A DNA stretch of 64,000 nt from Dioscorea cayenensis subsp. rotundata (Eukaryota; Streptophyta; Magnoliopsida; Dioscoreales; Dioscoreaceae). The stretch spans positions 1 through 64,000 of the forward strand of contig NW_024086962.1 in assembly GCF_009730915.1 (NCBI RefSeq), read 5' to 3'. Below, one piece after another: positions 13,333 to 62,743 of this stretch. Made by a program: the position numbers and the translations under genes. The notes below the pieces were generated by a model. That model did no database searches. It was not told where the DNA came from and saw only the letters and a list, made by a program, of their open reading frames with translations. Positions within the stretch are counted from its first letter, which is position 1. Each line of letters opens with the position of its first letter.

Positions 13333-13437
13333 CTTTGTCAATAATAAAATTTATAAAATATACAGCATAACAATTAATAATGACAAAATATTATATAAAA
13401 TGCAATAATATAAACATAATTAGTTTAATTTAATATT

Positions 13438-13640
13438 GTGGAAATTGCCAGAAAACCCCTTAAGTTTGCCATATTACCAAAAAAAACCCCTAATTTTGCA
13501 ATCCCCAAAACCCCTTCCTTTTACACTCCATGATTTTGAAACCCCCAAAGTATGTAACGGTGGTTAACGGAGTGATTTTTAAATTTTATGGACGAAAATG
13601 CCCTTGCACGGGAAGTCGAGCTGCAGACCCATTTTCGCAG
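13438..13640 (+). repeat. Left terminal inverted repeat region of the MULE
   Basis: Alternating ACCCC and AATTTTG/AAGTTTG blocks, then AAAATGCCCTTG. The inverted right end (about 22890-23095) shows the same order: CCCC, AATTTTGG, AACCCTTCC, TTTTTGCCCTTG. The match is degenerate rather than perfect. Confidence 0.65.
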
Positions 13641-14136
13641 GTGTGAGAGGAAGTGGGGGGAGGGGGGTTTGTTAGGGCTACAGCCATTTGAGTCGTTTGC
13701 TTGTCTTCTCTCAACTCGCCTCCACCATTTTTTGCACATCCTCTCAGAAATTCAACTTTTTTCCCTCGCCACCGTGTCTCAAGGAGAAGTCCCGCGCAAG
13801 TATTCGAGATTTTCATCGCTTTGTAATCTAAGGTATTGATTATGGTTTTTATGTTAACTATTCGTTATAAAGAAACATTTTTTTCGGGCTTTTTGTTTTT
13901 GTGATTTTGTTTTTTTATTGAAGACATCGAAGCCCGTAGGGGATTTATCGGCTCGGGGTTTTTGTTAGTCTGCATGGAGATTTCTCGCTAAGGTTTTTGT
14001 TTTTGTTTTTACATTTTCGTCTCAGGTACATGATCGAAATAGTTTTTTTCGATTGTTGTGATTTGTGTAATCGTTTATAATATACGCTTTCCCCTTTCAA
14101 TTGATATGGTTGCAGCTAGTACAAAATGAGGTCTCC

Positions 14137-14286
14137 GTTTAAAGAATGTGCTTTTACCGTTTAAGTTTTGTCGTCTTCGTTTAAATATTGGCATCCCTAT
14201 TTAATAATATAGGTCTTTGTTTAACAAGTGATATTACTGTTTAAGAATTAAGAGTTTACCGTTTAACAACTTATATTTCCGCTTAA
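14137..14286 (+). repeat. GTTTAA array 1 (leader of the Ulp1-like gene)
   Basis: Core starts at 14137, 14159, 14179, 14199, 14219, 14239, 14261 and 14281; spacing 22, 20, 20, 20, 20, 22, 20. Variants are ATTTAA at 14199 and GCTTAA at 14281. Bases before the core are often CC or CT; the roughly 14-bp spacers are not conserved. Confidence 0.9.
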
Positions 14287-15159
14287 CAATTTGTGAATAC
14301 GGCTGGCTGAATGTGCTGTTATTGTCACAGGCTTGTGATTATAGCGGTCAATCTAGTTAATGGGCGATGCTACTTGACACCGGTAGTGGAGACCGTGGCT
14401 GAATTGAAAGTTCACATGATCCCTCAACACTGGAGATCATCCGAAGGACACCGTTTGCAGCATTCACTGAGTTGGAAGCTGTATTCCAAGAGCGGGCCCT
14501 TCTTGATTCTCTGTTGCAAAAGTACAATAGCCGCACCAATAAATTCAGGATCGGGGAAAGCATGCTGACTTTCAGGCCTAAAGATTTGGCCCTCGTTCTT
14601 GGTCCGCGTTGCGATGGAGACGCAGTCATGTTTCAAAAGAAGAAAACACGCTCAGCTTTCGAAGAGAGGTATTTATCCAAAACCTACGAGAGACAGAGAC
14701 TCCATCAGGAGCACTCTTCAGTAACTCGTTGGACAGAGGGGAGAAGAAGAAAATTTTGTGAAACTACTGATGGTATACCTCATGGGTACAATCCTCTTCT
14801 CAAATACCTCCTGCTCGGTTCCTAACTGAATCGTTGATTATGTCGATGATCTACCTAGCATGGGGCAATACGTATGGGCGCAAGCGACGCACAAGTGGCT
14901 TATGGAGGACATTCCACAAGCAGCTGCTCGAGTGCAAGCTAGATGCGCGGGGAAGAAAACCAACACATGGTATATCAAGGGTTGCACGGTCGCGCTTAAC
15001 ATATGGTTTTATGAGATGACCAGAACCGGAAAGAAAGTCTGTTTCGGCAAGATCCCAAGGATGCTGTGCTACGTTGAAAATAATTACCGGAAGCAAGCGA
15101 TGATAGAAACCAGTTTGTCATCTCTCGAAGGAAAAGAGGTAATAAATCATGAACAATGT

Positions 15160-15327
15160 GTTTAACAGTAGATGTTAATGTTTAAACATATTCTTTACCG
15201 TTTAACTTTGTTCATTTACCGTTTAAAAAGTATCTTCAATGTTTAAAACTTTTGTTCTCTGTTTACGTTTATGTTATAATGTTTAAATATATAAGTTCAA
15301 TGTTTAACTATAGTTTTTATTGTTTAA
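15160..15327 (+). repeat. GTTTAA array 2 (intron of the Ulp1-like gene)
   Basis: Cores at 15160, 15180, 15200, 15221, 15241, 15261, 15281, 15302 and 15322; spacing 20, 20, 21, 20, 20, 20, 21, 20. It starts about 20 bp after the exon donor. The 15261 unit reads GTTTAC. Confidence 0.92.
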
Positions 15328-16502
15328 ACTGAATGATTTCGCTAAATTGTTTGGTTTACACATGTTAAATTCCTGAGATGGTTCCGGCGAATGCTGATGA
15401 AGATATATTTGTTCGGGCCAACCATAGGTTCGATGTTATTGCTCCGGAACCACTTGCTCGAAGGCAAGATGAGAGGGCAACCTCTTCAGTGCGAGCTCGA
15501 CGCCGGAGAAGCCCTCCCCTACCCCGCTAAATTGCAACACCCCCACCGACGATGACAACGACAGTCCCCTCGACCGTGGCAGCGCCCCCGACGATACTAT
15601 GCGAGGATGTCACTGCAACTCTTATGTAGGCCTGCCAGATATTGATGACCGAGTTCTCTCGGCTTGTCGCTCGGGTTGAGGTATTGGAAGGTCGGTCACA
15701 ATCGACTGCGTCGTCCCTCCGAACAAATAAATCACCCGGGATGGACGAGGCGTCGGATTTTGACGACGACGACATCATCGCGGAGGCCATTCGAAAACGG
15801 CCTCATTCGAAGAGGCTTGCGAAAAAGAGGAAAACAATAATGCCTCTGTCTCCACCGCCGACTGATGGTGTTACCGTTAATGACATGGCTGTCACGGTGG
15901 AGGAGATCGCAGATGATGTTACCATTGCCGCGGTTGATAAGATCAATGACTCCGTCATGAACCCGGTGGAATGGGCGGCTGACAGTACGGCATCAAAGAT
16001 GGACACAATCCCTGAAGAACAAGAACCAGCTAACATAGGGTCTCCAATTGATGTTGTTGCCGTGGCCACGGTTGAGAAGGTCGTTGACTCTATTGTCAAC
16101 AAAATCATAGTCACGGTGGAACCAACGGCCGACATTACCGCATCGAAGGCAGACACAATCCCACAACAACAAGAAGCATGTAAAGATATGTCTCCTCTTG
16201 ATGCTGCCGTCGTGCCCGCATCGAAGGAAGATGATGCTGGTGCTAAACTCCGACGACCGTCAACAACAGTGCAGCATGATGATCCCAAAACAGCTGTTGA
16301 CGAGGGTCAAGGGAATACCGCCGAAATGACGACGAGAGAGAAGATCAATGCGAATAAAAAATTAGAAGAAGTTCGGAAAGTCTTTATTCCGAAGAAGAAA
16401 AAATACGTTGGCCAATTGCGCCACAATAAGTACGAACAGGAGTTGATAAGGATCTTCCTCAACTGCCCTTTGGACAAGTAAGTTTGAAGTTTTTATGGTA
16501 TT

Positions 16503-16692
16503 GTTTAAACTATTACATGTTACCCTTTAAGTTATATATTTAACGTTTAACTATTCCAGATAGAATTTAAACTATTATATTTTACCATTTAATTTATTTA
16601 GTAACCGTTTAAATATTCGACATAGAATTTAAACGGTTGATGTATCAGTTAAATATTTACAATATTGTTTACGTATCTCTGTTACCGTTTAA
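16503..16692 (+). repeat. GTTTAA array 3 (intron before the protease domain)
   Basis: Cores at 16503, 16525, 16545, 16565, 16587, 16607, 16627, 16648, 16667 and 16687, as GTTTAA, CTTTAA, ATTTAA, GTTAAA or GTTTAC. The last unit is followed at once by the CGCAG acceptor, so the array fills nearly the whole intron. Confidence 0.9.
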
Positions 16693-17595
16693 CCGCAGTA
16701 CTGTCCTGTGGAAGAATGACTCTGTCAGAATCACACGGTCCAGATTATTCGATCTGCTTGAGGGGAAGGAGATGGTCGCAGACGATGTGATGGACGCTTT
16801 CGTATGTATAATCCAAAATTCGCTGATGATAGTACCATATTGTTATAAGAAGCGCGCCTCCATCACACGACTACTGGCGCTGTTTATGTCAATGCAGGAA
16901 GACGCACATGATACCACTATGGCTATGATCGGAGATGCCGCGCGCAACTTGCATGATGTTGAAATTGTCATCCTCCCGATAATTATGAATGACCAATTCC
17001 ATGTCGTCGTCCTTGACAATGACAAATAAGAATACAAGAATTATTCTTCATGCCACAGCAAGGAATACGATAAAGGCGCGCTAGACATGGTAAGTGCTTT
17101 AATAATTTATGTTTAATTAATAGTGTTTGGTAAATAACCGGTATCCTAATATGAACTTGTATACCTCCATAGCGGAACCTATTCGACCTTTGTATCGACA
17201 TGGAGTTCGGCGAGTCGGTGACCGCAAAGTACCCACTTGTTCATGACACTGAAACCCCACGACAAAACAAGGAAGTGTCGACTGCGCCGTCTATGTGATG
17301 CGGTTTATCGAGCAGTTATTCACAGATGAGAAGCTACGGCTACCGCAGACGAACGTCCCTTATCTGCGATTAAAGTATGTTTCCCGCATACTTAAGGAGG
17401 GGAGGGCAGCCGACATCACTGCCAAAGGGGAGTGTTCGAAAGCGGGTTCATAGAATACGTTGTCTTAGTTTCAAATGTATACCAGTTTAAATTCAATTCA
17501 TTGTTTTCGAAGAACATGACAAATTTTGTCAATGTAAATTTATATGTATCTATATTTATATACTTAACTCATTTTTTTAACCTTCCAGTATCATT

Positions 17596-17784
17596 GTTTA
17601 ACTTGCACTTTCATTGTTTAATTTTAAGTTTAATTGTTTAACTATCAATATCATTGTTTAAATATCCATGTTACAGTTTAAGAAGAACTAGTTACTTGTA
17701 AAAATAAATATTTAACGTTTAAAATAATAATGTCTCTATTTAAATACATGTGTTAACTATAAGAATAAGATTTTCTCTGTTTAA
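17596..17784 (+). repeat. GTTTAA array 4 (3' of the Ulp1-like gene)
   Basis: Cores at 17596, 17616, 17636, 17656 and 17676 at exactly 20 bp, then 17698 (GTAAAA), 17717, 17738 (ATTTAA) and 17779. It lies between the ends of the convergent Ulp1-like and transposase genes and follows the Ulp1 orientation. Confidence 0.9.
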
Positions 17785-18420
17785 AAATGAAAAGTTGGCA
17801 CACAATTAAGTTTGTTTCTTTTTAAAAATCAGCTGTTTTACAATGGCTAGTCGGCGACAGTTTCATTGTAAGATCTGCGATTGTGACTGGAGCCGTAGTA
17901 GCGGTTGCAACGTAACTCGCGGACCTCAAAGGCTTGTGACTCGATCCTTTTTCGCCTAGGACGCCCAGGTTGCCTTCTCGTCACAGGCGGTCGCAGACGC
18001 AGTTCACGATTTCCGTCCGTAGGCTTGTCATCGTCGGGTATGGGGAATATAGCTTCCTTATACACCAGTTTGTAATTATCGACGGTGAAGTAGCCGCTAA
18101 TAAATCGATGAACGTTGGTGTCTATCTGTATTATTGCAGAGCAAGCACGTTTACACGGTATACCATAAACTTGCCACCTGTGACATGAACATGTTTTGAT
18201 GGCAAGATCTACAGAGTAGCTGCACTGGTCAATCACTTCATAACGATCATCGACACAACGACCAACACGAAAATTTCGGCTATCCTCCACAAGTATCTCC
18301 ACCTTCGAATGTATGTCCGGGCACAAGTAGGTCTCCCATTTGTTTTCTTGCTCACGGCGGTCGCATAACATGCGCATCAACTTGAACTTGTACAGCGTAC
18401 AACACAAATCTCAGACAATG

Positions 18421-18506
18421 TTAAGCGAAGACATTGATATTTAAACATAAACACACTTTATTAAACAGTAGTATCATAAATTAAACAATGATGTAGATGG
18501 TTAAAT
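18421..18506 (-). repeat. GTTTAA array 5 (transposase intron)
   Basis: On the plus strand the inverted core TTAAAC/TTAAGC/TTAAAT starts at 18421, 18441, 18461, 18481 and 18501, exactly 20 bp apart. The core therefore points along the minus-strand transposase. Confidence 0.93.
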
Positions 18507-19852
18507 GCAGAGAAATATATTTGAATATTTATAAACTATTTTAAAGGATAATACGAATTCGTAAGTGAAAATGAACATTCGAATACCTTATGGAATCGAC
18601 CATCTTCGTTACCGGCAAATACCGAGCTTTTTTGATCCAAGCATTGAACATCTCACCCCAACGTTCACCTCTGAACAGATAATTCGACCAATGTGCCATA
18701 TCCGATTTATTAATCAACCAGTGATGGGCTTCGGGTGATGTGGCCAGCAGTTCATTCACAGTATCATCGAAACCTTTAGCCATGGATGCCCACGCAATAT
18801 GAAAGTATATAGACCAGCACTCCTCTCTCAATGCCTTCGCTAGTCTGATGTTGCCTTTCATGAAATTGGCCTCCAAGTGTCGAAGACAGTATGCATGTGG
18901 GGAAGAAGGGAAGACTCTCGCAATAGCGTTCACAAGGCCCTTGGACCTGTCTGAGACGAATGTAATTATCTCATGATAATCTCCTTACTCGTATAAAGCA
19001 TCACCTGACTTGGATATGAACCAAGTCCAATTGGCATCGGTCTCGTTGTCGACAATACCGAAGGTGATGTGGAAGAAACCATTGTTTCCATCTTTGCATG
19101 TAGCACCCAGTAGAGTACCCCGATACTTTCCAAGGAGGTAAGTACCATCGACAAATAGCAGCGGCCTGCAAGCCTTCTTGAATCCGACAATACACGCTCT
19201 GAAAGAAAAGAATGCACGTTTAAATCGCTCACCGTCTCTTTCAACAATCGCAATGCTGCCGGGGTTTGTCTCAACCACCTTATCCACGTACCAAAGCAAC
19301 AAATCGTAACTGGAGATGTCGCTGCCGTCGAGCACCACCCGGGCATACTGTTTCCCAACCAAGCCTGCTTGTATGGAATGTAGACACCATGTTCCCGCAA
19401 CATGTCCTTCTGAATGTCGATGGCTTTGTACAAGGGCCGGTCTTTGAGTTTCTGAATCACCCGTGCGCTTACCCATTTTTTGGACTCTTTTGGGTGTGAG
19501 GCCGATCCCACTCCACCACCACAAGTGTGTGACGGGTTCATTATCTTTATTCTGAAAGTATTTCTATTATATTCTTTTGATGCATAAAGGCGCCATTGAC
19601 AACCAATGGCAGCGCATTCCACAGTGACCCGGTGTTTCTCGTTCTTTATGAATTTGAAATTGAAAATCCGTTTGATTGCAAAATTTCAAAGTGCGTCCCT
19701 GAAATGTTCAACACCTTCAAAACATTGTTCGATATCCAACGACAACACTTCAGAATGATCTGACGAGGAAGGAAGGCATCCCACACCGTCAGGTTCGCCA
19801 TGGGGTTGACCGGGAGCGCTCGCAGAATCTGAATTCCTGCCAACACTTCAGT

Positions 19853-20001
19853 TTAAACGAAACCATCCATAAGTTAAACAGAGACATAACGTGCTTAAAT
19901 GATAAAATCATAATTTAAACGTTAAGTCAAAGAGTTACACGATGAAGATAAAATTTAATTGTAATCAGAATATATTTAAACAGAGCCTGTTAAACTTAAA
20001 C
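19853..20001 (-). repeat. GTTTAA array 6 (transposase intron)
   Basis: Inverted cores at 19853, 19874, 19895, 19915, 19935 (TTACAC), 19955, 19976 and 19996; spacing 20-21 bp. Orientation again matches the minus-strand gene. Confidence 0.9.
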
Positions 20002-20327
20002 CGTAATGAACTTATACAACTAGATAAACATAAAATAGAATAATCTTACAACGAGAAAAACTCGTTTTCAGTGAACGTGACACATCCGCTGGAAGTCGAC
20101 ATCGTTTTCTATTGGACAAGCCATTTAATACCCATCGGGTGTGATAAACTTTACCCTTACACGGGAAACATCGAGATCTCATTGTTCACATATCTCAGCT
20201 AACACTGACTCCCAAGAAGTCAGCGCCGTGAACATTAGCACTCTTCCCTCCCCGTTGTATCTAGCAATACCACAAAAACTATCCATAATATAACTACTGA
20301 ACTCGAATCTAATAAACTAAATGAGAA

Positions 20328-20328
20328 G

Positions 20329-20357
<29 letters not shown>
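20328..20357. repeat. (GAA)n microsatellite
   Basis: About ten AGA/GAA units just upstream of the transposase start. The equivalent place in the second derivative (about 22795-22823) carries a shorter, interrupted version. Confidence 0.85.
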
Positions 20358-20360
<3 letters not shown>

Positions 20361-20525
20361 GATAATGTAAAGAGCCTTCTAAAATGTGTTTCATAAAAAA
20401 GTACGCAACTGTATGCATAAAGTCAGACATGATGTGATTGGGCACTATTTTTCCCACCATTTTAAAGGGCAAAAGAGGTATTTCATTACATGGACCCACT
20501 TGAAGTGACCGACAAGGGTTAATCC
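20328..20525. repeat. Internal copy of the MULE right terminal region
   Basis: From the GAA tract through GAGCCTTCTAAA, GACATGATGTGA, CCATTTTAAAGGGCAAAA and ATTTCATTACATGG, this matches 22795-22985 near the right end. It is what would be expected if a full-length element once ended here, before a second truncated one. Confidence 0.7.
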
Positions 20526-20761
20526 CTAGAGACAATCATTACTAGCTCCTTGGCTCGTAATTCTTCTTCGTTTTCCACCATTGCCGCTTTCAACCATTGT
20601 CTCAAAGTTTTTCTTCGCTTGTAAGGACGATGTTGCAGTGTGAAGTCCTTGCAAGCGACCGGTCGACTACAAGCGAGAAGCGGCGGGAAGTAAGCAAGTG
20701 ACGATAGAAGCCAACCTGTCATCGCTCAAAGGAAAGTACTCCACTTATCATGATTCTCTTT

Positions 20762-20913
20762 GTTTAAATATAAATCTTTAATGCTTTATCAAATATGATA
20801 TAGTGTTTAATATATTGGTTCACTATTTAAAATCATTTTATATAGTTTAAACAAATATGTAAACCGTTTAAATATTATCATTTCACTATTTAACAATATA
20901 TGTTATTGTTTAA
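20762..20913 (+). repeat. GTTTAA array 7
   Basis: Cores at 20762, 20805, 20825 (ATTTAA), 20845, 20866, 20888 (ATTTAA) and 20908. It follows the PMD-exon-like remnant at 20640-20745, as array 2 follows its exon, and has the same orientation. Confidence 0.85.
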
Positions 20914-20976
20914 ATTGAATGCTTTTACTGATAGAGCCTCCATGAAGAGAACACTTGAGCAGCTTGCTTGTTCACT

Positions 20977-21335
20977 GTTTAAAATAATTCTTAACCGTTT
21001 AAATATTTTGATTTAACTATTTTAAAATATATGTGATTGTTTAAATTGAATGCTTTCTGCGACATCGTGTTGAAGATGGATATTTTTCCAAAACATTGTG
21101 TTACAGGCATTCCATCAATCCTCTTGGGTACCTCATGGGTCTCTGTTTAAACGTCAACCTTTTACGTTTAAACAATTATATATATTATTTAAACTGTCGG
21201 TTCACTGTTTAAATAATTTGTATATCTTTTAAACATATTTATTTTTTTGTTTAAACCATTGTCACTGTTTACACATATTTATTTTTTGTTTAAACATCGT
21301 TGTCACTGTTTAAGTAGTAAGACGATTTTGTTTAA
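20977..21335 (+). repeat. GTTTAA array 8
   Basis: Cores at 20977, 20997, about 21019 and 21039, then 21145, 21166, 21187, 21207, 21227, 21249, 21267 (GTTTAC), 21288, 21308 and 21330; spacing mostly 20-22 bp. CAC or GTCACT often precedes the core. Confidence 0.85.
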
Positions 21336-22279
21336 CATTTTGTTTGTTTACAATGCCGTTTTTTGTTACTAAAAATACTTAAATATCAAAGGTTGACACT
21401 CAAATAAGTTTGTTTCATTTATAATATTTAAACATTAACAATGACCTCTGATTAACTATCAAAAGTTCACACTCAGATACGCTTGCTTCATTTCAAATAA
21501 AATATTTACAACATCCACAACATTTACAATGTCTTCACGGACATCAAACACTTGCGAGTCTATCCTAGTTCGTCTATTAAGATTTCGGCTTTCCTCAACA
21601 AGTATCTGTACCTTCGAATGCTCACGGCGGTTGCATAACATGTGCATCAACTTGAACCTGTACAACGTAGAACACGAACAGTTAAAAAAGGGAGTTAAAC
21701 AGTTAAATGAAGACAATAATATTTGTACACTAAGGAACTTTTTTTAAACGCTGAGAACAATTCTCAAGTGATAAATATCAATTTTGTTTTAAAGTATATG
21801 TCGTGGTCACCCTCTCCGGAGAATCCTCCACAATCAAGCAATGCGTGAAAACTTTCTTGTCCTGATCAAGTCAAAATGCCCGCTTAATTGCTTGCCCATC
21901 ATCCTCCGCATTCAAGCAATTAGGCGAACTTTCTGACTTGAACAGGAAAAGAAAGTTTAACTTGTTGCGTGATCAATTCTCCAGAAGAGGATGATCACGA
22001 CAAATCCTTTAAACGCATATCCTGGACACATGAAGATGAAACTCATCCGAGAAGAAGCAGAGGAAGAGAATGAGGGGGTGTTCAGGGGAATTGGTCTTTC
22101 TTCTCATTTATGATGTGAAATCCGTAAGCCGGTTGACACTTCGATTTCGAGAAAGAATAAATTTGCCATAAATTTTTGTGTACGGGATACCGTAACGAGA
22201 TATAGAATTTAATGCCGTCATTAATTCTTGTGCATGGGATACCATAAATTTGCCATTGGCCACCTGCCAATACTTCAGT

Positions 22280-22447
22280 TTAAACGAAATAGAAAATATT
22301 TTAAGCAGAGACATAAAATGTTTAAACGATACATTACAATGTTAAACGGTAATGCAAATAGTTAAATACTGACAAATAAATTAAATGAAGAAGACAATTG
22401 TTAAATATAAAAATAATATATTAAAACAGAGATAGGCGACGTTAAAC
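22280..22447 (-). repeat. GTTTAA array 9
   Basis: Inverted cores at 22280, 22301, 22322, 22342, 22362, 22381, 22401, 22421 and 22442; spacing 19-21 bp. It lies in the minus-sense transposase derivative, between the SWIM-like and PB1-like remnants. Confidence 0.9.
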
Positions 22448-23389
22448 GGTAATCAACTTATACAACTAGATAAGCATAAAAAAGAAGAATCTTACAACGA
22501 GAAAAACTCATTTTAATTAGGATTCGACAATGCCACATCGTCTATCTCGACAAGATCGACAATGGCACATCCGCTGGAAGTCAACCTCATTTTTTATTGG
22601 ACAAACCATTTTATATCCATCAGGTGTGATAAACTTCACCCTGACATGGGGAACATCAAGACCCAATCGCTCACGTATCTCAGCTAAGCTAACACCAATT
22701 CCCAAGGAGACAATGCCGTGAACAATAGCCCTCGAATTGAAGAAATTCTAACCTTATTAAGAAACCGGCAGAATTTAAATATAACAAACCAAATGAGGAG
22801 AATAAGAAAAAGAAGAAGAAGATGTGATGAGCCTTCTAAACTTTGTTTGACAAAAGGCACCAAAAAAATCAGCAAAATTGTATGTATAAAGATTGGACAT
22901 GATGTGAGTGGCCGTTTTTTCCCGCCATTTTCAAGGGCAAAAATGAAATTTCATAACATGGTCGCATTTCAAGTGAACGGCAAGGGTAAAAAGAGAATTT
23001 AAACAATAACGGAAGGGTTGTCCGAGGTTTACCAAAATTGGAGGGGCTGTTTGGGAAATTTTTAAAATTCACGAGGGGTAAACAATAATTTTCCCTTTAA
23101 TATTTAAATTCATTCTATTCTCTAAAAAAATTATAAATAAATCATTTTATATTTATAAAAAATAATTTACATACTACCTATTTTATATGTATGCTAATTT
23201 TTTTAATAAACTTAAATTATATATATATTGTTAAAAAATTTTGTTGTTTTCAAATTTTATCCTATATATTTTATTGAAAGGAAATATTCAATTTAACTAA
23301 TTTAGTATGTTTTACTTAAAAATAAATAAACAAATGAATATATAGGAGTTTTTGAAACTAAAAAAAAATCTCCATCTCTCCCCACAAGA

Positions 23390-31787: not shown

Positions 31788-33060
31788 GGAGATGGCATCT
31801 CAGCGGGAACGGGGCCTATGCTTCAACTATGATTTCGCCTTTTAGTCGGGGATACCGATTCAATCCGCCACAATCCTTTGCTTTCTTATCGATGATGAGG
31901 AAGAATATCAGGGAGAAATTCTGGAGTCTAATCCTCCAAAGCAACCGATGCAAATAGTTGAACCCACTCCAGAACTATTGCCCGCCATAGAGATACCATG
32001 TATCTCGTTTCATGCCCTGACGAGTGTTTTGGTACCATCCACACTCAAGATCACTGGCAAAGTAAACTGCAAGAATGTACTAGTTCTCATTGATGGCGGA
32101 TCAACGAACAACTTCATCCAATCTAGATTGGTTACCCATCTAGGGTTAACCGTATAGACAACACCATATATGAATGTGATGGTCGGCAATGGTGCCCAGC
32201 TTCAGTGTCGAGGGGAATGCATGCAAGTCCCTTTACAACTTGGTGATGCTATTTTTCCTGTTGACCTATTACTTCTTTTAGTCTTTGGCGCTGACATTGT
32301 CCTTGGGGTGCATTGGTTAGTATGACATTGTCCGACTCTCTTTGACTAATATCAATTATAGATGGAGTTTGATAACAATGGGACATATGTTAGGTTGCAT
32401 GGCTTACCAAGTCCTCAGTTGCACGGCGCTTCGCCTTCATCATTGAAATGCGACATCCGAGGCCAGCATGTAAGTCAGTACTTCCACTTGTCCGTTTCTT
32501 TGAATGCCACCACAACAAGGTTGCCACAATCCACAACATGTGAAAATTCCACCAGGTCACGTGGTTTACTTGACCACTTACATGCACTGTTGACCAGATT
32601 CAGTGACATATTCTCGGTGCCTCATAGCCTTCCACCTGTGTGCGAATTTGATCACAAAATTCCTCTGCAGGACAACACCTCTCCTGTGAACGTGTGCCAT
32701 AACAAGTACCCGCACTTTCAGAAAATCGAGATTGAAAGACTGGTTGGAGAAATGTTAAAGGAAGGCATCATTCGTCCAAGTACCAGTCCGTTTTCCTCTC
32801 TGGTGATTATTTTCAAGAAAAAAGATGAAAAGTGGAGATTCTGTGTTGACTACCAGGCACTTAATGCGGTGACTATTCGAGATCGATTGTCCATCCCAAC
32901 TGTTGACGAGCTACTCAATGAACTCGTCGTCGCTCATGTTTTCTCGAAGAAGGATTTGCATTTCGGGTATCATCAAGTGTGGATCAATCCAACGGATGTC
33001 GAGAAAATGGCTTTTTGGACACATGAAGGACATTACGAATTCCTCGTAATGCCCTTTGGC
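31788..33060 (+). pseudogene. Ty3/gypsy retrotransposon fragment: zinc knuckle, protease, first part of reverse transcriptase
   Basis: In order: a decayed zinc-knuckle start (RERGLCFNYD, about 31800); an aspartic protease with LVLIDGGSTNNFIQSR (about 32085-32135) and GADIVLGVHWLV; then the N-terminal half of reverse transcriptase with EGIIRPSTSPFSSLVIIFKK, WRFCVDYQALNAVTI, FSKKDLHFGYHQV and FLVMPFG. The active-site YxDD block and everything after it are missing: the frame is cut at 33060, exactly where unit B begins. Stops occur near 31833, 32155 and 32320. The protease motif reads DGG rather than the usual DSG. Confidence 0.85.
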
Positions 33061-33692
33061 TGATCTATGACTGAAAAAATGTCACGTTGTTAAACAGATT
33101 GGTGAAAGGTGGGTGGGCTCCTCACCATGTGCCACGTCAGCAAAATAGGCTGTGTATTATTATTTGGAGAGGGTAAGAGAAAAGACAACTCATGATGAAA
33201 AATTTTCAGATAAATTTTAGCAAATTATGAATAAATTAATAGCTTAAATAAATATTTCCAATTTTAATTATGTTTTTCAGTTGATTTTTTTTTAAAAAAA
33301 TATATTTTCTATAGATAAGTTTGGGGAACCAAACAGTAAAAAAGGTGATTTTGTTTTTTTTTTCTGGAAAAAAGAGTATTTTTTTAACTCTAAAATATAA
33401 TATTTTAAGAATATTCTTCTCACTTCACACTTTTATATTCATACTATTAATAGATTTAATCATCTTTAATTTTTCACTTTTAACCATTGAATTTAAATAT
33501 ATATTATTTAAAATATAAGTTTTATTTTTCTATTATTTATAATTATTTATTAAATATAAAATATGATTGATAAACTACAAAAATAAATATAAACATTACA
33601 TTACATTAATTACTTCATAAAAACATAACATACAAACAAGCACCAACAGTGAAAATAACACATTATTAAAAGCTAAAGTAGCACACAAGCTT

Positions 33693-35053
33693 TTAATTAT
33701 CTTCGTTATTTGCATAGCGCAACCACAAATGTTCAATCAATGCATTGCGAAGTGCAATATGAGCGTCTTTGTCCTTAATTTGCCTGTAACGACCAAAAAA
33801 TTGTTCAAATCGAGCATCTTCATCTTGTACCAATTTAACTGCTAAGGTCGGCACTTCACTTACATCCACAATTGATGCATTGAGATCTCGTTCATCCTCA
33901 ACTATCATGTTGTGCATAATAATGCATGCAGTCATTATGTCGTGTAAGATATTTTTCTTCTTAAACTGTGTTGGTCCTGCCACAATTGCAAAACAAGATT
34001 GTAGAACACCAAATGCCCTCTCAACGTCTTTTCTGCATGCTTCTTGTCTCATTGCAAAATATTTTTTCTTCGGAGTTCGTGGTTGATGAATAGTTTGTAC
34101 AATAGTAGACCATTTTCGATATATGTTATCAGCTAAATAATATCCCATATGGTACTCATTTGCTTGAATAACGTAATGAACAGGAGGAGCAATACCTTGT
34201 GCTAGGTTGGAGAACAAATTCGAAGACTCCAAAACATTTGTCATTGTTGGTGCCTGGCATACCAAAATAAGTGTGCCATATCCAAAGATCATAGTCAGCT
34301 ACTGCTTCAAGAATAATGGTTGGACATCCATACCTTCCTCTATATTGTCCAACCCATGTTGTGGGATAATTTTTCCACTTCCAATGCATACAATCCAAAC
34401 TTCCTAACATTTCTGAAAAGCCACGTTGTTCTCCAATGTGTAAGAGTCTTGCAATATCATTAGCATTAGGTGGTCTAAGATATTGCTCAACGAAAATCTC
34501 TACAATGGCTCGACAAAATCTTTTGAAGTTTTCAATTGAAGTTGATTCGCCGATTTTGAAATATTCGTTTGTAGCATCAGCAGGTAAACCATATGCCAAC
34601 ATTCGAAAAGCAGCAGTAATTTTTTGTAAACTAGATAACCCAACTCGACCTAGACCATCACAGCGCTGTTGGAAGTAACTATCATGGTCCTTAATTACCT
34701 CAACAATGCGAAGAAACAAACTTCGTGACATCCGATATCTTCGGTGAAACATTTCAGCATTGTATCGTGGATTCTCTGAAAAATTAATCATTCCACAAAT
34801 TGCGCTTTACTTCTTCACGGTTACGATTGAAAACAACATGCCCTGTAATAGAGCCACCATGGGAGCGACGATTGTTCAGATGACTAAGGGTTAACTCTAA
34901 TATCATGTTATTATTTTAAATAACATGATGCATTACATCATCTTCCACTGAAAATAGATCATACATCCATAACATATTGTCATCATCATCTGAAGATGAT
35001 GATGACAATATGTTATTTTCAGTATTCGAAGTTTCTCCAATGTTGTAATTCAT
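33693..35053 (-). pseudogene. PIF/Harbinger DDE transposase, broken
   Basis: From ATG at 35053: a low-complexity NNILSSSSSDDDDN start, then NRNREEVKRNLWND, YRMSRSLFLRIVEVI, RVGLSSLQKITAAFRMLAYG and GESTSIENFKRF. Catalytic DDE: first Asp in GSLDCMHWKWKN, second in FGMPGTNND, Glu in CRKDVERAFGVLQS, followed by IIMHNMIVEDE. Order and spacing match plant PIF transposases. Breaks: an in-frame TAA near 34911, one extra A near 34787 (ahead of FSENPRYN) and a two-base loss near 34235, just after the second catalytic Asp. Confidence 0.85.
34971..35014. repeat. Perfect 44-bp inverted repeat in the transposase N-terminus
   Basis: Two perfect 21-nt arms (34971-34991 and 34994-35014) around the loop GA. 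The arms code for the serine run and the aspartate run of the transposase N-terminus: TCATCATCATCT on one side and AGATGATGATGA on the other. Confidence 0.95.
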
Positions 35054-35120: not shown

Positions 35121-35850
35121 GACATTATTCAATTCTCTTATCTTCTGGCATTGGAAAGTGTGACAAGATAGGGTTTGGTAAAATGAATTCAAATCCAACG
35201 GTGTCGATGCAGATGAAATCCATCTGATGGTTGCTAAGAAGATAAGGTGGCACGTTATTCAATTCTCTTATCTTCTGGGATTGGAATGTGTGACAAGATA
35301 GGCCGGGTTTGGTAAAATGAATTCAAATCCAACGGTATCGATGCAGATGAAATCCATCCGACGGTTTCTAAGAAGATAAGGTAGCACGTTATTCAATTCT
35401 CATATCTTCTGCCATTGGGAAGTGTGACAAGATAGGGTTTGGTAAGATGAATTCAAATCCAACGGTGCCGATGTAGATGAAATCCATCATACGGTTGCTA
35501 AGAAGATAAGGTGGCATGTTATTCAATTCTTTTATCTTCTGGCATTGGGAAGTGTGACAAGATAGGGTTTGGTAAGATGAATTCAAATCCAACGGTGTTG
35601 ATGCAGATGAAATCCATTCGATGGTTGCTAAGAAGATAAGGTGGCATGTTATTCAATTCTCTTATCTTCTAGCATTGGGAAGTGTGACATGATAGAGTTT
35701 GGCAAGATGATATCAAATCCAATGGTGTCGATGCAAATAAAATCCATCCGATGGTTGCTAAGAAGATAAGGTGGCACATTATTCAATTCTCTTATCTTCT
35801 GGTATTGGGAAGTGTGACACGATAGGGTTTGGTAAGATGATATCAAATAT
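35121..35850. repeat. About 130-bp tandem repeat between the Harbinger genes
   Basis: Nearly six copies; ATTCAATTCTCTTATC starts at 35127, 35257, 35391, 35521, 35651 and 35781. Each unit contains TGTGACAAGATAGGGTTTGG, TCAAATCCAACGG and GATGAAATCCATC. At every junction AGAAGATAAG and CTTATCTTCT are inverted around about 20 bp, so each junction can fold into a hairpin. The array fills the shared upstream region of the two divergent genes. Confidence 0.92.
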
Positions 35851-48884: not shown

Positions 48885-49565
48885 CAGCTAGTAATTAGGA
48901 TGGTAAAACATACATCGGTCAGTAATTAGTACAAAGTAAAACGGTCAAACTTGCACCGATTAGTACTTAGTACAAAGTTGGACTGTCAAACCTACACCGG
49001 TAAGTAATTGCACAAAGTAGAATGATCAAACCTGCACCGGTTAGTACTTAGTACAAAGTTGGACGAGTCAAATCTGCACCAGTAAGTAATTAGCATAAAC
49101 TAGGTCCCTAAAACCTGCACCGGTCAGTAATTAGCACAAAGTAGGATGGTTAAACCTGCACTGGTTAGTAATTAGCACAAAATAGGATGATCAAACATGC
49201 ACCGGTCAGTACTTAGCATAAAGTAGGTCAGTCAAACTTGTATCAATCAGTAATTAGTACAAAGTAGGTCGGTCAAACCAGCATAAGAGCAACTAGCACA
49301 AAGAAGGTCTATCAAACCTGCACCGGTCAGTAATTAGCACAAAGCAGGACAGTCAAACCTGAATCAGTTAGTAATTATCACAAAGTAGGATGACCAAACT
49401 TGGACCGGTCAGTAATTATCACAAAGTAGAACGGTTAAACTTGGACCGGTCAGTAATTAGCATAAAATATGATGGTCAAACCTACACTGGTCAGTAATTA
49501 TCACAAAGTAGGAAGGTCAAAAACCTACATCGGTCAGTAATTAGAACGGTTAAACCTGCAATGAT
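48885..49565. repeat. 41-bp minisatellite
   Basis: About 16 diverged copies with core CACCGGTCAGTAATTAGCAC followed by AAAGTAGGAYGGTCAAACCTG. AGTAATTAG-type anchors fall at 48921, 48962, 49003, 49043, 49085, 49126, 49167, 49208 and 49249. It ends about 35 bp before the TATA box of the next element's gene. Confidence 0.92.
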
Positions 49566-50550: not shown

Positions 50551-52090
50551 TCAACTAACGTTGATATCATCTGATGAGTAAAATGTCTCGTACGTCTCGT
50601 GTTGTGGTTGTCGTGGAATATGTGCCTTATCGTGTTCGGCTTGAGAACTATATCGACGACGTCTTCGTAGAGGAGGACTCGATGGTGGCACGTCTACAAC
50701 TATTGTTGAAAACACTCTGAGTGGTGCTGGAAGAGCGTTCCCTCTTGTACGAGGATCCAGTAGGTCTTGATCAGTCGATAAAAATAGTGTGGTGTTAGTG
50801 GTATACCATTCATAATATTCCGCCGATATTGCATTATTTCCGATAGGAACATGAAGGGTGAGGCAACGTGATGCTTTATCTCTCCAATATCCAATCCATC
50901 TCCAATGCATTAGTGCCCAATCTGTGTCGATTCTACACCGAAGATCATGATCATGGGTCAGTCCAATGCAAACTGGAGCAAGCAGAACACCTTGGGCGAA
51001 ACCAAATTGTCTTGTTACCCGATCGGTTTGGTGCCACTCAACAAATTCGAAGCAAATCATTGATGTAAACGCATTCTATAAACTTATGTTAGCAAAGATG
51101 TCAAGTGGCACTTGTGCTATTATCTTGTCCACATCGTATGACCGCCATATAAACTATTCAAAATTGTTTACCAAATAATCAACAATTATTAATACCTAAA
51201 ATATGTGCATGAATTATCAGTTGTTATAATAACATTACCTATTGCATCTCTAAGCGATCTAGTAACTGCCTGTATACCTTCACATTGTGCTTGTTGCTAC
51301 GACTATCGTTATCCACTTCAATGTGCACCCACTTAAAAAATAGGAATGAATTACAATTCAATGTATTATAATTGAGTATAAAATGAAGCAACAATTTAAT
51401 TTGTTCTTACCTACGAGCTAGAGGAAAGGATACGATAGAACTGGTTCGAGGGGATATATTTGAAATCCTGTACCATGCCAATGATTGAAGTAATATCATT
51501 AATCCACTAATATTCTTTATATCCCTGTTGGATGCACGGCATAAAGGCATGCCCATGGTTGCTAGACATGCTGAACCCCAACTGTATCTTTCTACTTCTG
51601 TAAAATCCCTTAGAAGTGGTGACCACTTCAGATGAACCATGTTCTGGGACATATCCGGCATGAAGATGCAACCGATAAGCCTTAGGATATAGGCACGTGC
51701 ATAACATTCTATCTCTCATTAACCTGCATCATATGACAACATGCCAAATGTTTTCTCAAGCCACGTTAGTGTTATATTTTGACCTTTCCTTTGATCCGCT
51801 GATGGGACTACTTCAAGCAACTCCGCATAGACAGCACTTCCTAATCTGGAAGTCTGTCCGATGACTTCATGGCCGTTAATGGGAAAGCCCAGTAATGGCA
51901 CCATATTTTCCAAAGTGATTGTTGTTTCACCGCATATAAGGTAAAACTTGCGTGTTTCTGTCCGCCATCTCTCCACTAGTGCGCTCACAAGAGCGGTATC
52001 AATTCCGAAATTAAGAATGTGAGCAGCATGATAGAATCCGGCTTCTCTTAAAAGACTTATGATTTTAGGAGGAGGCTCTATAATAGCCAC
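50551..52090 (-). pseudogene. Plant mobile domain gene (MAIN/PP7-long-form-like), MULE-associated, broken
   Basis: PMD proteins occur in host genes such as MAIN and in many MULEs. From ATG 52090: REAGFYHAAHILNFGIDTAL, ALVERWRTETRKFYL, GETTITLENMVPLLGFPI; then, after a shift near 51720, RAYILRLIGC, RYSWGSACLATMG, SGLMILLQSLAWYRI (51440-51700). A short exon at about 51245-51330 contains VYRQLLDRLEMQ. Last exon (to about 51150): VDKIIAQVPLDIF, MICFEFVEWHQTDRVTRQFG, ISAEYYEWYTTNT and a basic tail RRRRRYSSQ. Breaks: a shift near 51720 and an in-frame TAG at 51076-51078. Domain order and spacing are those of full PMD proteins. Confidence 0.8.
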
Positions 52091-60960: not shown

Positions 60961-62743
60961 TCAATCTTCTGTCCTCCAATTTGCTTTAACTGGAGAAAGA
61001 GATGACTCCGCAAACTCTTCTTTTTTCCTGTGAATTGCCTTTACTAGAAACCTAGTTTGGGGTTCTGGTATCATTCCTTTTGCCCTCATCTCACTAAAAT
61101 AATGCAATGCCTCATCTAAATTTTCCTTGGCTGTGAAGCCCATGGACCATAATTGTGTAAGAGCGTTGATCAGGACCCAAACCACATGTCTCCATTTCTG
61201 TCCATACAGTTTGTACACCTCTCTGGTAATTCCACCTGACATAAAGGTTTAATATCAAGTTATATGTGTCACTATCAATCTTGCAACTGCCTCTTTTCAT
61301 ACGCTGCAGAAATTCAACAACCTCTTCTGGCTTCTTCATGGTCTTTAGAATGTAAGAGTAAGTCCTCGAATTTGGAAGGCAACCTTTCTGCTCCATTTCA
61401 TCCAGAAGTTCACGCACTTTCTCCATCCTTCTTATTTTGCAGAGATGTTTTATGAGAGAGTTATAGGTAGCCACATCAGGAAGACAACCCCGTTCATTCA
61501 TTTCCCCAAATATCTCAAGAGCTTCAGGAATTCTTTTCTTGAAACACAATGCATCAATGATACAGTTGCAGATTGTCACATCAGGCTGGCACCCTTTCTT
61601 CCACATGGCAGTGAACAATTTAACCGCTGTTCCAAGTTTCCCAGCCTTTGACAAAGAATTAATGAAAATGCCATATGTGAACAAATCGGGCTTGCATTTG
61701 GAAGATATTATGTCATTCCAAAACCTTTTAGCTTCACGCAAGCTTCCTAAAACACACCAACCATTTAGAATAATATTTCTACTCTTAATAACTGGAGGAA
61801 ACTCATCCTTTTTTAGGAGAAATAGTGACTCAGCTTCCTCCACATGTTTATATCTGCAGAGAGACATAAGAAGTGTTTGGAAAGCAACCAGATCATGTTC
61901 AAATCCATAATCCTTTCTCTTGTAAAAGATTTCTATAGCATCTTCAACCTTTATGAGCAGCAGCATATCTGTTCAATAAAACTGCAAATGTTTTCTCATT
62001 GATTATAGTGGCAGCTCGTTCTTGGGTTTATGTATTTTACTCAGATGTATTTTTTGTTATTATATTATAAATATGTTTATGTTATTGTTGTATTTACATT
62101 GTTTGTTTTACAATTATTTGGATGAATTTATCGGCAAAGTAGATATTCCATTAACTGTAATTACATCATTACACAAAACTAAGCCTTGTATTAATGCCGA
62201 TCTGTACAATAGCAACTCGCTCTTTTGGTATCTCATCAAAAATATGCCACATGATATTGATTTGCTTCATCCTCCCAAGAATATTAAGCATCTCATTATA
62301 TGCCCTTGACTCATGAGCATAACCCTGTTGTTTAGATGCCCAATTAAAAGAAACATAAAGCTGACTTCCAATCTGAACGATGTCTTCGAAGAACTTGAAC
62401 AACTAAATCCTCACTTAAGGTAATGACATTTTCTTTGAGGGTTGATTTCTAGCTTGTCACTATCTTCATAAGATTTCAGAATTTTTTGGATCATGGTGGC
62501 ATCTCTAGTAACTAAAGAACCATCAGAAGCTTGATGAATAGAGTCAGACAATGAAACAACTCTACTAGAATTAGCACAATCTATACTAGAATGAGGAGAA
62601 GACGCAAATGTTCTTCCCAGAGAAAAATTCCAACCAGGACTATAACCATAAAAAGTGACATTCAGCAGGTAGAAATGCACCTTTCTATATCTGCCACAGC
62701 AGCATCCAATCTTATGCAGGATAAATGGTGCAAAATGTGCCAT
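60961..62743 (-). pseudogene. Pentatricopeptide repeat protein gene (At3g15200-like), with frame breaks
   Basis: P-class PPR proteins bind organellar RNA. From ATG 62743 (minus): an organelle-type presequence with R, S and aromatic residues (KIGCCCGRYRKVHFYLLNV, GRTFASSPHSS), then SEDLVVQVL, NWASKQQGYAHESRAYNEML, FDEIPKER, TFAVLLNRYAAAH, and an unbroken run of PPR motifs from 61966 to 61112 (LVAFQTLLMSLCRYKHVEEA, NIILNGWCVLGSLREAKRFW, ICNCIIDALCFKKRIPEALE, TYNSLIKHLCKIRRMEKVRE, DQRSYTIMVHGLHSQGK), ending LDEALHYFSEMRAKGMIPEP and NWRTED. The implied length, about 530 residues, matches the family. Four one-base additions break the frame: 62439-62441, 62346-62349, 61948-61949 and 61118-61121, all in short homopolymers. 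About 185 bp of AT-rich DNA (62030-62214) interrupts KER. Either a young pseudogene or a real gene with consensus errors. Confidence 0.8.
62030..62214 (-). other. AT-rich interruption in the PPR gene
   Basis: Separates two half-matching copies of a PKER-encoding segment (GAGCGAGTTGCTATT on the 5' side, GAACGAGCTGCCACT on the 3' side). The downstream copy continues in frame into NEKTFAVLLN. No GT-AG pair joins the flanks in frame with a good pyrimidine tract, so it may be an insertion or an unusual intron. Confidence 0.55.

Follow-up and report, generated by a model that had tools for sequence, protein, structure and literature searches.

Phased short-motif arrays in the non-coding parts of a Mutator-like element of yam: probable target sites of a self-encoded anti-silencing protein

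Anatomy of the element

The 64,000-bp stretch of the genome of Dioscorea cayenensis subsp. rotundata analysed here (contig NW_024086962.1, positions 1 to 64,000; in the following "the window") contains a Mutator-like element (MULE) in which arrays of a short motif around GTTTAA, phased at about 20 bp and separated by mostly free spacers, occur together with a gene of the DUF1985/plant mobile domain (PMD) type. The borders proposed in a first-pass annotation, which was made from the sequence without database searches, are exact, since the target-site duplication (TSD) TTTAATATT directly abuts both ends at 13429-13437 and 23096-23104 (Table 1). Its description of a MULE with an Ulp1-like gene and a transposase gene likewise holds, the domains of the two lying on opposite strands within this 9-bp TSD. 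A TSD of 9 bp is also the length given for VANDAL elements (PMC6446971; here and below, statements on published elements refer to the excerpts of the cited papers that were compared). The terminal 120 bp of the two ends align with a score of 55, the maximum of 300 mononucleotide shuffles being 49, and no inverted repeat of 40 nt or more was found in the element; the similarity of its ends is only degenerate. As in VANDAL-type MULEs, a MULE transposase gene and a 9-bp TSD are thus both present together with degenerate terminal inverted repeats (TIRs), and as in KI-MULEs, in which the Ulp1 domain lies in reverse orientation to mudrA (PMC2528002), a Peptidase_C48 domain on the plus strand faces a mudrA-type transposase on the minus strand.

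When separate pieces of the transposase were searched against Pfam, DBD_Tnp_Mut (2.5e-12), MULE (3.7e-9) and SWIM (2e-5) were all found above the cut-off. In the plus-strand gene, the joined read-through gives PMD (5.6e-12; 45.9 bits at a cut-off of 34.9) and Peptidase_C48 (22.6 bits at a cut-off of 20.7). From about position 20500 onwards, end parts of both genes and their arrays recur in truncated form inside the single TSD pair, and this second set is either an internal duplication or the mark of a composite element. Because stops or frame shifts interrupt both genes, the copy is probably dead.

Table 1. Coordinates of the element, its genes and its arrays in the window
Feature	Position	Strand	Remarks
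Left TSD copy, TTTAATATT	13429..13437	.	sole 9-base word common to both border stretches compared, none longer
Whole MULE	13438..23095	.	9,658 bp; flanked by 9-bp TSD; degenerate terminal inverted similarity
Array A	14120..14310	+	8 units; leader or first intron of Ulp1-like gene
Exon with PMD/DUF1985	14341..15138	+	broken by frame shift and stops; Dioscorea relatives align to this exon
Intron with array B	15139..15377	+	10 units; GT-AG, phase kept across; borders by eye
Linker, ending in ...LNCPLD	15378..16477	+	contains a stop and a change of frame; ORFs at 15369-15527 and 15630-16478
Intron with array C	16478..16698	+	9 units; GT-AG, phase kept; last core 6 nt before intron end; borders by eye
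Ulp1 (Peptidase_C48) catalytic part	16699..17460	+	with stops; Pfam
Array D	17475..17830	+	3' flank, between convergent genes
Transposase (DBD_Tnp_Mut, MULE, SWIM)	17847..19852	-	frame-shifted
Transposase intron with array E	18408..18586	-	5 cores exactly 20 bp apart; borders approximate, by eye
Array F	19836..20050	-	probably first intron or leader of transposase gene
Second partial copy	20500..23095	.	repeats both genes and their arrays in part; either internal duplication or composite
Array G	20737..21060	+	within remnant of Ulp1-like gene
Array H	21138..21440	+	3' of Ulp1-like remnant; mixed strands
Array I	22263..22490	-	within transposase leader remnant
Right TSD copy, TTTAATATT	23096..23104	.	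same border-word comparison as left copy

Phasing and orientation of the arrays

Counting [AG]TTTAA, GTTTAC or GCTTAA as cores, positions 13438-23095 hold 80 matches on the plus and 58 on the minus strand, palindromic sites being counted on both. Pairs of cores 19-22 bp apart number 39 and 22, respectively. In 500 dinucleotide shuffles each, such pairs average 0.19 and 0.15 and never exceed 3, and the window outside the element holds a single one on both strands together; the reported periodicity of 20-22 bp is thus well above background. In a scan of hexamers at spacings from 8 to 60, GTTTAA at 20 bp ranks first in the element (12 pairs, 0.24 expected).

Nine array regions, 2,216 bp in total, were drawn by eye and given the strand of the adjoining gene, and six coding stretches (4,454 bp) were drawn by eye as a contrast. 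The arrays contain 81 sense cores, of which 55 are GTTTAA, compared to the approximately 75 cores in about ten arrays initially counted; the individual positions quoted at that time (15160-15322 and 18421-18501) are correct, as is the location of the arrays in leader, introns and 3' flanks. Within the coding stretches there is one sense and one antisense GTTTAA, the former (17111) falling in an apparent small intron. As the regions were drawn by eye, this contrast in density between arrays and exons is partly circular, which leaves period, strand ratio and shuffle test unaffected. Among spacings of 18-23 bp between consecutive cores, 20 bp is found 32 times, 21 bp 11 times, 22 bp four times, and 18 and 19 bp once each (mean 20.33 bp). 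The idea that the period lies near two helical turns is borne out by phasing at 20.3 bp; the best-fitting period, however, is 10.15 bp, followed by its double.

The aligned units read TYAYYGTTTAAM, followed by about 8 bases of little conservation. Relative entropy is raised from -5 to -1 (0.33-0.39 bit per position) and at +6 (0.47 bit), so that the original definition of the conserved part as the core plus one to three preceding bases was too narrow. Directly before TTTAA, 30 of the 80 sites have TG and 19 have CG.

As for orientation, 44 non-palindromic GTTTAA in the nine arrays run in the sense of the adjoining gene and five against it (two in array C, three in array H), in addition to 11 palindromic GTTTAAAC. 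In arrays D and H the sense direction is a choice of label because both lie between convergent genes, and as the arrays are not independent, belonging to two genes and being partly duplicated, the rule rests on few events. That the core follows gene sense is therefore a real tendency overall, but not proof of a directional function.

The plus-strand gene and its relatives

A search with the DUF1985 part returned 10 matches, five of them with an organism name, and another search in which 8000 candidates were scored returned 19 matches, 10 of them named; all named ones are from Dioscorea, namely D. cayenensis subsp. rotundata, D. alata and D. zingiberensis. When nine relatives were scanned against Pfam, DUF1985 was listed in six and exceeded the cut-off in one (P0012 from D. 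alata, 43.0 versus 35.1 bits), and PMD was listed in seven and exceeded the cut-off in three. One Dioscorea relative, P0008, stops at the same point as the end of the linker. In at least seven (P0001, P0002, P0005, P0015, P0017, P0019 and P0020), conceptual translations continue past the end of the exon, and P0001, P0002 and P0015 end in V-stop, as does the yam element (TGTGTTTAA). The first intronic core may accordingly be shared with these relatives, which were compared as protein translations.

An 827-residue read-through, used as a protein query, had no match at E <= 0.001 in the set of 8000 candidates with the most words in common. Since the query contains the domain that found the relatives in the separate search, this miss is probably due to crowding by the low-complexity linker, and it is silent on the fused architecture. 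An AlphaFold2 model of P0001 from a 14-sequence alignment was too poor to be of use (mean pLDDT 45.9), a profile search of solved structures yielded two matches at the level of noise (E 0.44 and 0.47), and a search of viral contigs with P0001 gave 10 pattern matches of which none was confirmed.

Known systems and a possible mechanism

The initial statement that such arrays had not been described does not hold, as they are known in kind from VANDAL MULEs of Arabidopsis (Hosaka et al. 2017, PMC5735166). There, VANC proteins, which contain DUF1985 and for which DUF287 has also been shown, strip DNA methylation from their own VANDAL element. VANC21 accumulates in the introns of VANDAL21 and in its intergenic and terminal non-coding regions, and in vitro it binds a nine-base motif often located in fast-turnover tandem repeats, for which growth by tandem duplication was proposed, and VANC6 uses other motifs (PMC5735166). 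The same non-coding regions are re-silenced by RNA-directed methylation, and in VANDALs degenerate TIRs go together with VANC-related genes (Sasaki et al. 2023, PMC10398659). VANCs with an Ulp1 domain (KIU) act likewise, through motifs in the non-coding regions of their own kind, and the capture of Ulp1 has been dated to the monocot-eudicot split (2026 review PMC13317346, citing Sasaki et al. 2022 for the former).

Like VANDAL21 with VANC21 and VANDAL6 with VANC6, the yam element is a MULE with degenerate termini and a DUF1985-type gene of its own, whose introns and intergenic and terminal non-coding parts carry tandem repeats of a short motif, and the placement of its arrays in introns, leader and 3' flanks matches that of the VANC21 sites (PMC5735166). 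It differs in its Ulp1 domain, its monocot host and its motif, TYAYYGTTTAAM as against YAGTATTAY and AGTTGTCC/AGTTGTAC for VANC21 and VANC6, and in the strict 20-bp phase with near-random spacers, of which the excerpts of PMC5735166 make no mention for VANDAL21 and VANDAL6. With KAONASHI (KI/KIU) MULEs it shares the Ulp1-like gene opposite the transposase and the lack of a clear TIR, whereas phased arrays are not described for these in the parts of PMC13317346 and PMC2528002 compared. MAIN and MAIL1, in turn, are transposon-derived PMD proteins like the product of the yam gene and play a role in transposon silencing, but are host genes without described arrays in the part of PMC7156037 compared. 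A literature search for Mutator-like, Ulp1 or VANC elements in Dioscorea gave no such yam element among the matches listed, and one directed at the motif in tandem repeats of transposons returned a single paper, which deals with flower colour in soybean.

Given the VANC precedent, the DUF1985/PMD gene within the element, the KIU analogy and the position of Ulp1 opposite the transposase, the most likely role of the arrays is to serve as targets for an anti-silencing protein encoded by the element itself, and it is fairly probable that they represent the cis-acting component of a sequence-specific system of the VANC/KAONASHI kind, by which the element counters its own silencing. The gene on the plus strand, with its PMD/DUF1985 and Ulp1 domains, would have made a nuclear protein binding TYAYYGTTTAAM; with sites every 20.3 bp, or about two turns, bound copies would come to lie on one face of the helix and mostly in one orientation, and binding could be cooperative along 150-350 bp. 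If the protein worked like VANC21 and VANC6, it would remove DNA methylation along with other silent marks, beginning at the arrays in leader, introns and flanks and then extending across the element, so that the transposase could be expressed. As its own genes are broken, the present copy could at most be a target of intact ones.

The VANC model predicts a DUF1985 gene in the element, and matches to PMD and, below the cut-off, to DUF1985 were found on the read-through when this was checked afterwards. The phasing far above shuffles and flanks and the retention of the core among spacers that are near random overall also speak for the model. The ratio of observed to expected CpG is 1.06 in the element versus 0.61 and 0.56 in its flanks, which is compatible with low past methylation or escape from methylation. 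In 2-kb blocks starting in the element it is 0.74-1.23; elsewhere it is 0.13-0.89 except for the blocks at 52001 (0.94) and 54001 (1.24), and two other transposon-like stretches of open reading frames have 0.77 each. Youth or coding composition could equally account for the high ratio.

Weighing of the evidence

Several observations weigh against an own-protein target. DUF1985 stays below the cut-off on the joined read-through (4.6e-7; 30.3 versus 35.1 bits); in the unjoined pieces it is not listed at all at E up to 1, and PMD (20.1 bits, cut-off 34.9) and Peptidase_C48 (20.0 bits in the last piece alone) fall below theirs, so that the assignment of a DUF1985 protein to the element is a weak one. 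DUF287 was not listed in the pieces scanned, which left the leader and 15379-15629 outside. Similarity of the motif to those published for VANC21 and VANC6 does not exceed that of shuffled motifs (32%, 90% and 42% of shuffles reach the same value); the published motifs also differ from each other. To these come the short stretches in which whole units are alike, and the weak preference for the core between internal duplicates, which are taken up below.

The arrays could be degenerate minisatellites, i.e., functionless 20-bp units that spread through AT-rich introns by slippage and unequal exchange and have since decayed. With Tandem Repeats Finder, units of 20-21 bp are seen at 14219-14289 (69% matches), 15180-15227 (78%) and 17591-17661 (78%, 3.5 copies), with 2.3-3.5 copies per stretch, as well as longer units of 62 bp (84%) and 39 bp (87%), and because of these, recent tandem duplication must also have shaped the arrays. 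When five ungapped pairs of internal duplicates are compared, identity is 84% for the core and 75% for the spacer (Fisher p 0.28 or 0.012, depending on direction), the 12-bp motif being hardly better kept (79% versus 76%), and both genes are broken. On the other hand, the 8-bp spacers match close to chance overall: the 51 adjacent pairs have an identity of 0.358, the remaining 279 pairs of the same array 0.357, and the 2,899 pairs from different arrays 0.331. And yet 38 of 50 GTTTAA are followed at 20-22 bp by a further core with no more than one mismatch, as compared to 12 of 250 at control offsets. Simulated neutral decay down to the observed spacer identity retains only 9-12% of cores, which is a rough guide because indels were ignored and a single fixed offset was examined. 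The ordinary minisatellite at 48896-49544 in the same window, with a 41-bp unit, keeps 75% matches over 15.8 copies, and the recurrence of one motif in the introns of two unrelated genes would be left unexplained. Such an origin without function is therefore quite unlikely. The arrays share head-to-tail repetition with ordinary minisatellites, which three short stretches resemble; they differ from them in that mostly the motif is alike and not the whole unit, so that the proposed contrast between a fixed core and free spacers applies to the arrays overall but not to these stretches. Selection on the core, one of two suggestions made at the outset next to template-driven spread, is the better supported in the long term, although the core is only weakly better kept between internal duplicates. 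We interpret this to mean that the arrays grew by tandem duplication and that the motif was under selection while ancestral copies were live, but hardly so thereafter.

Transposases and host factors, too, bind short repeated sites, and array A is located in the leader, as would suit enhancer or promoter arrays recognised by the element's transposase or a host transcription factor instead of the DUF1985 protein. The scatter of sites through introns and 3' flanks speaks against this, as does the fact that none of the nine arrays comes closer than 600 bp to an end of the element, where a transposase would be expected to bind. The known precedent for such a layout is VANC, and we consider this alternative very unlikely. 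Less likely still are signals at the level of chromatin or RNA, that is, rotational positioning of nucleosomes by TTTAA phased at 10.15 bp or branch-point-like or U-rich splicing signals: the best periods of 10.15 and 20.3 bp and the mostly sense orientation of intronic cores would fit, but arrays D and H lie outside any intron found, and a 12-bp motif with a fixed G exceeds what positioning or U-richness needs. The branch-point reading in particular was rejected, as the last core of intron C ends too close to the intron end (6 nt).

Other features of the window

The 41-bp minisatellite contains AGTAATTA, and some of the strongest spaced hexamers of the right flank stem from it. A further tandem repeat at 35125-35848 has a 130-bp unit in 5.5 copies with 90% matches. 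Open reading frames at 32362-34791 resemble what we take to be a Ty3/gypsy reverse transcriptase (plus strand) and a PIF/Harbinger-type nuclease (minus strand), and one at 61112-61966 (minus strand) presumably resembles a pentatricopeptide-repeat protein.

Implications

Within the sources compared, VANC target arrays as a kind are already known, and novelty lies in the host lineage, in the motif and in a strict helical phase combined with spacers that are mostly random. A more far-reaching and rather doubtful version of the own-protein reading assumes a polar, helically phased lattice, in which the DUF1985/PMD-Ulp1 protein would assemble as an oriented, one-sided filament along every non-coding part of its own transposon. 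Each subunit would span two turns, recognising a 12-bp word while the intervening 8 bp are of no account; spacing and polarity would then serve, in addition to the motif, as the address by which self is told from host, and Ulp1 would strip SUMO from silencing proteins at these sites. If so, transposon anti-silencing would have a monocot branch that relies on an architectural code.

If the arrays are indeed targets of the element's own protein, an anti-silencing system known experimentally from Arabidopsis would extend to a monocot lineage, that of yam, with another motif and with Ulp1 in the DUF1985 gene. The 20-bp phase with mostly free spacers would in addition lead to a structural prediction, namely oriented and cooperative binding on one face of the helix, and thereby suggest how one protein might specifically recognise a long target.

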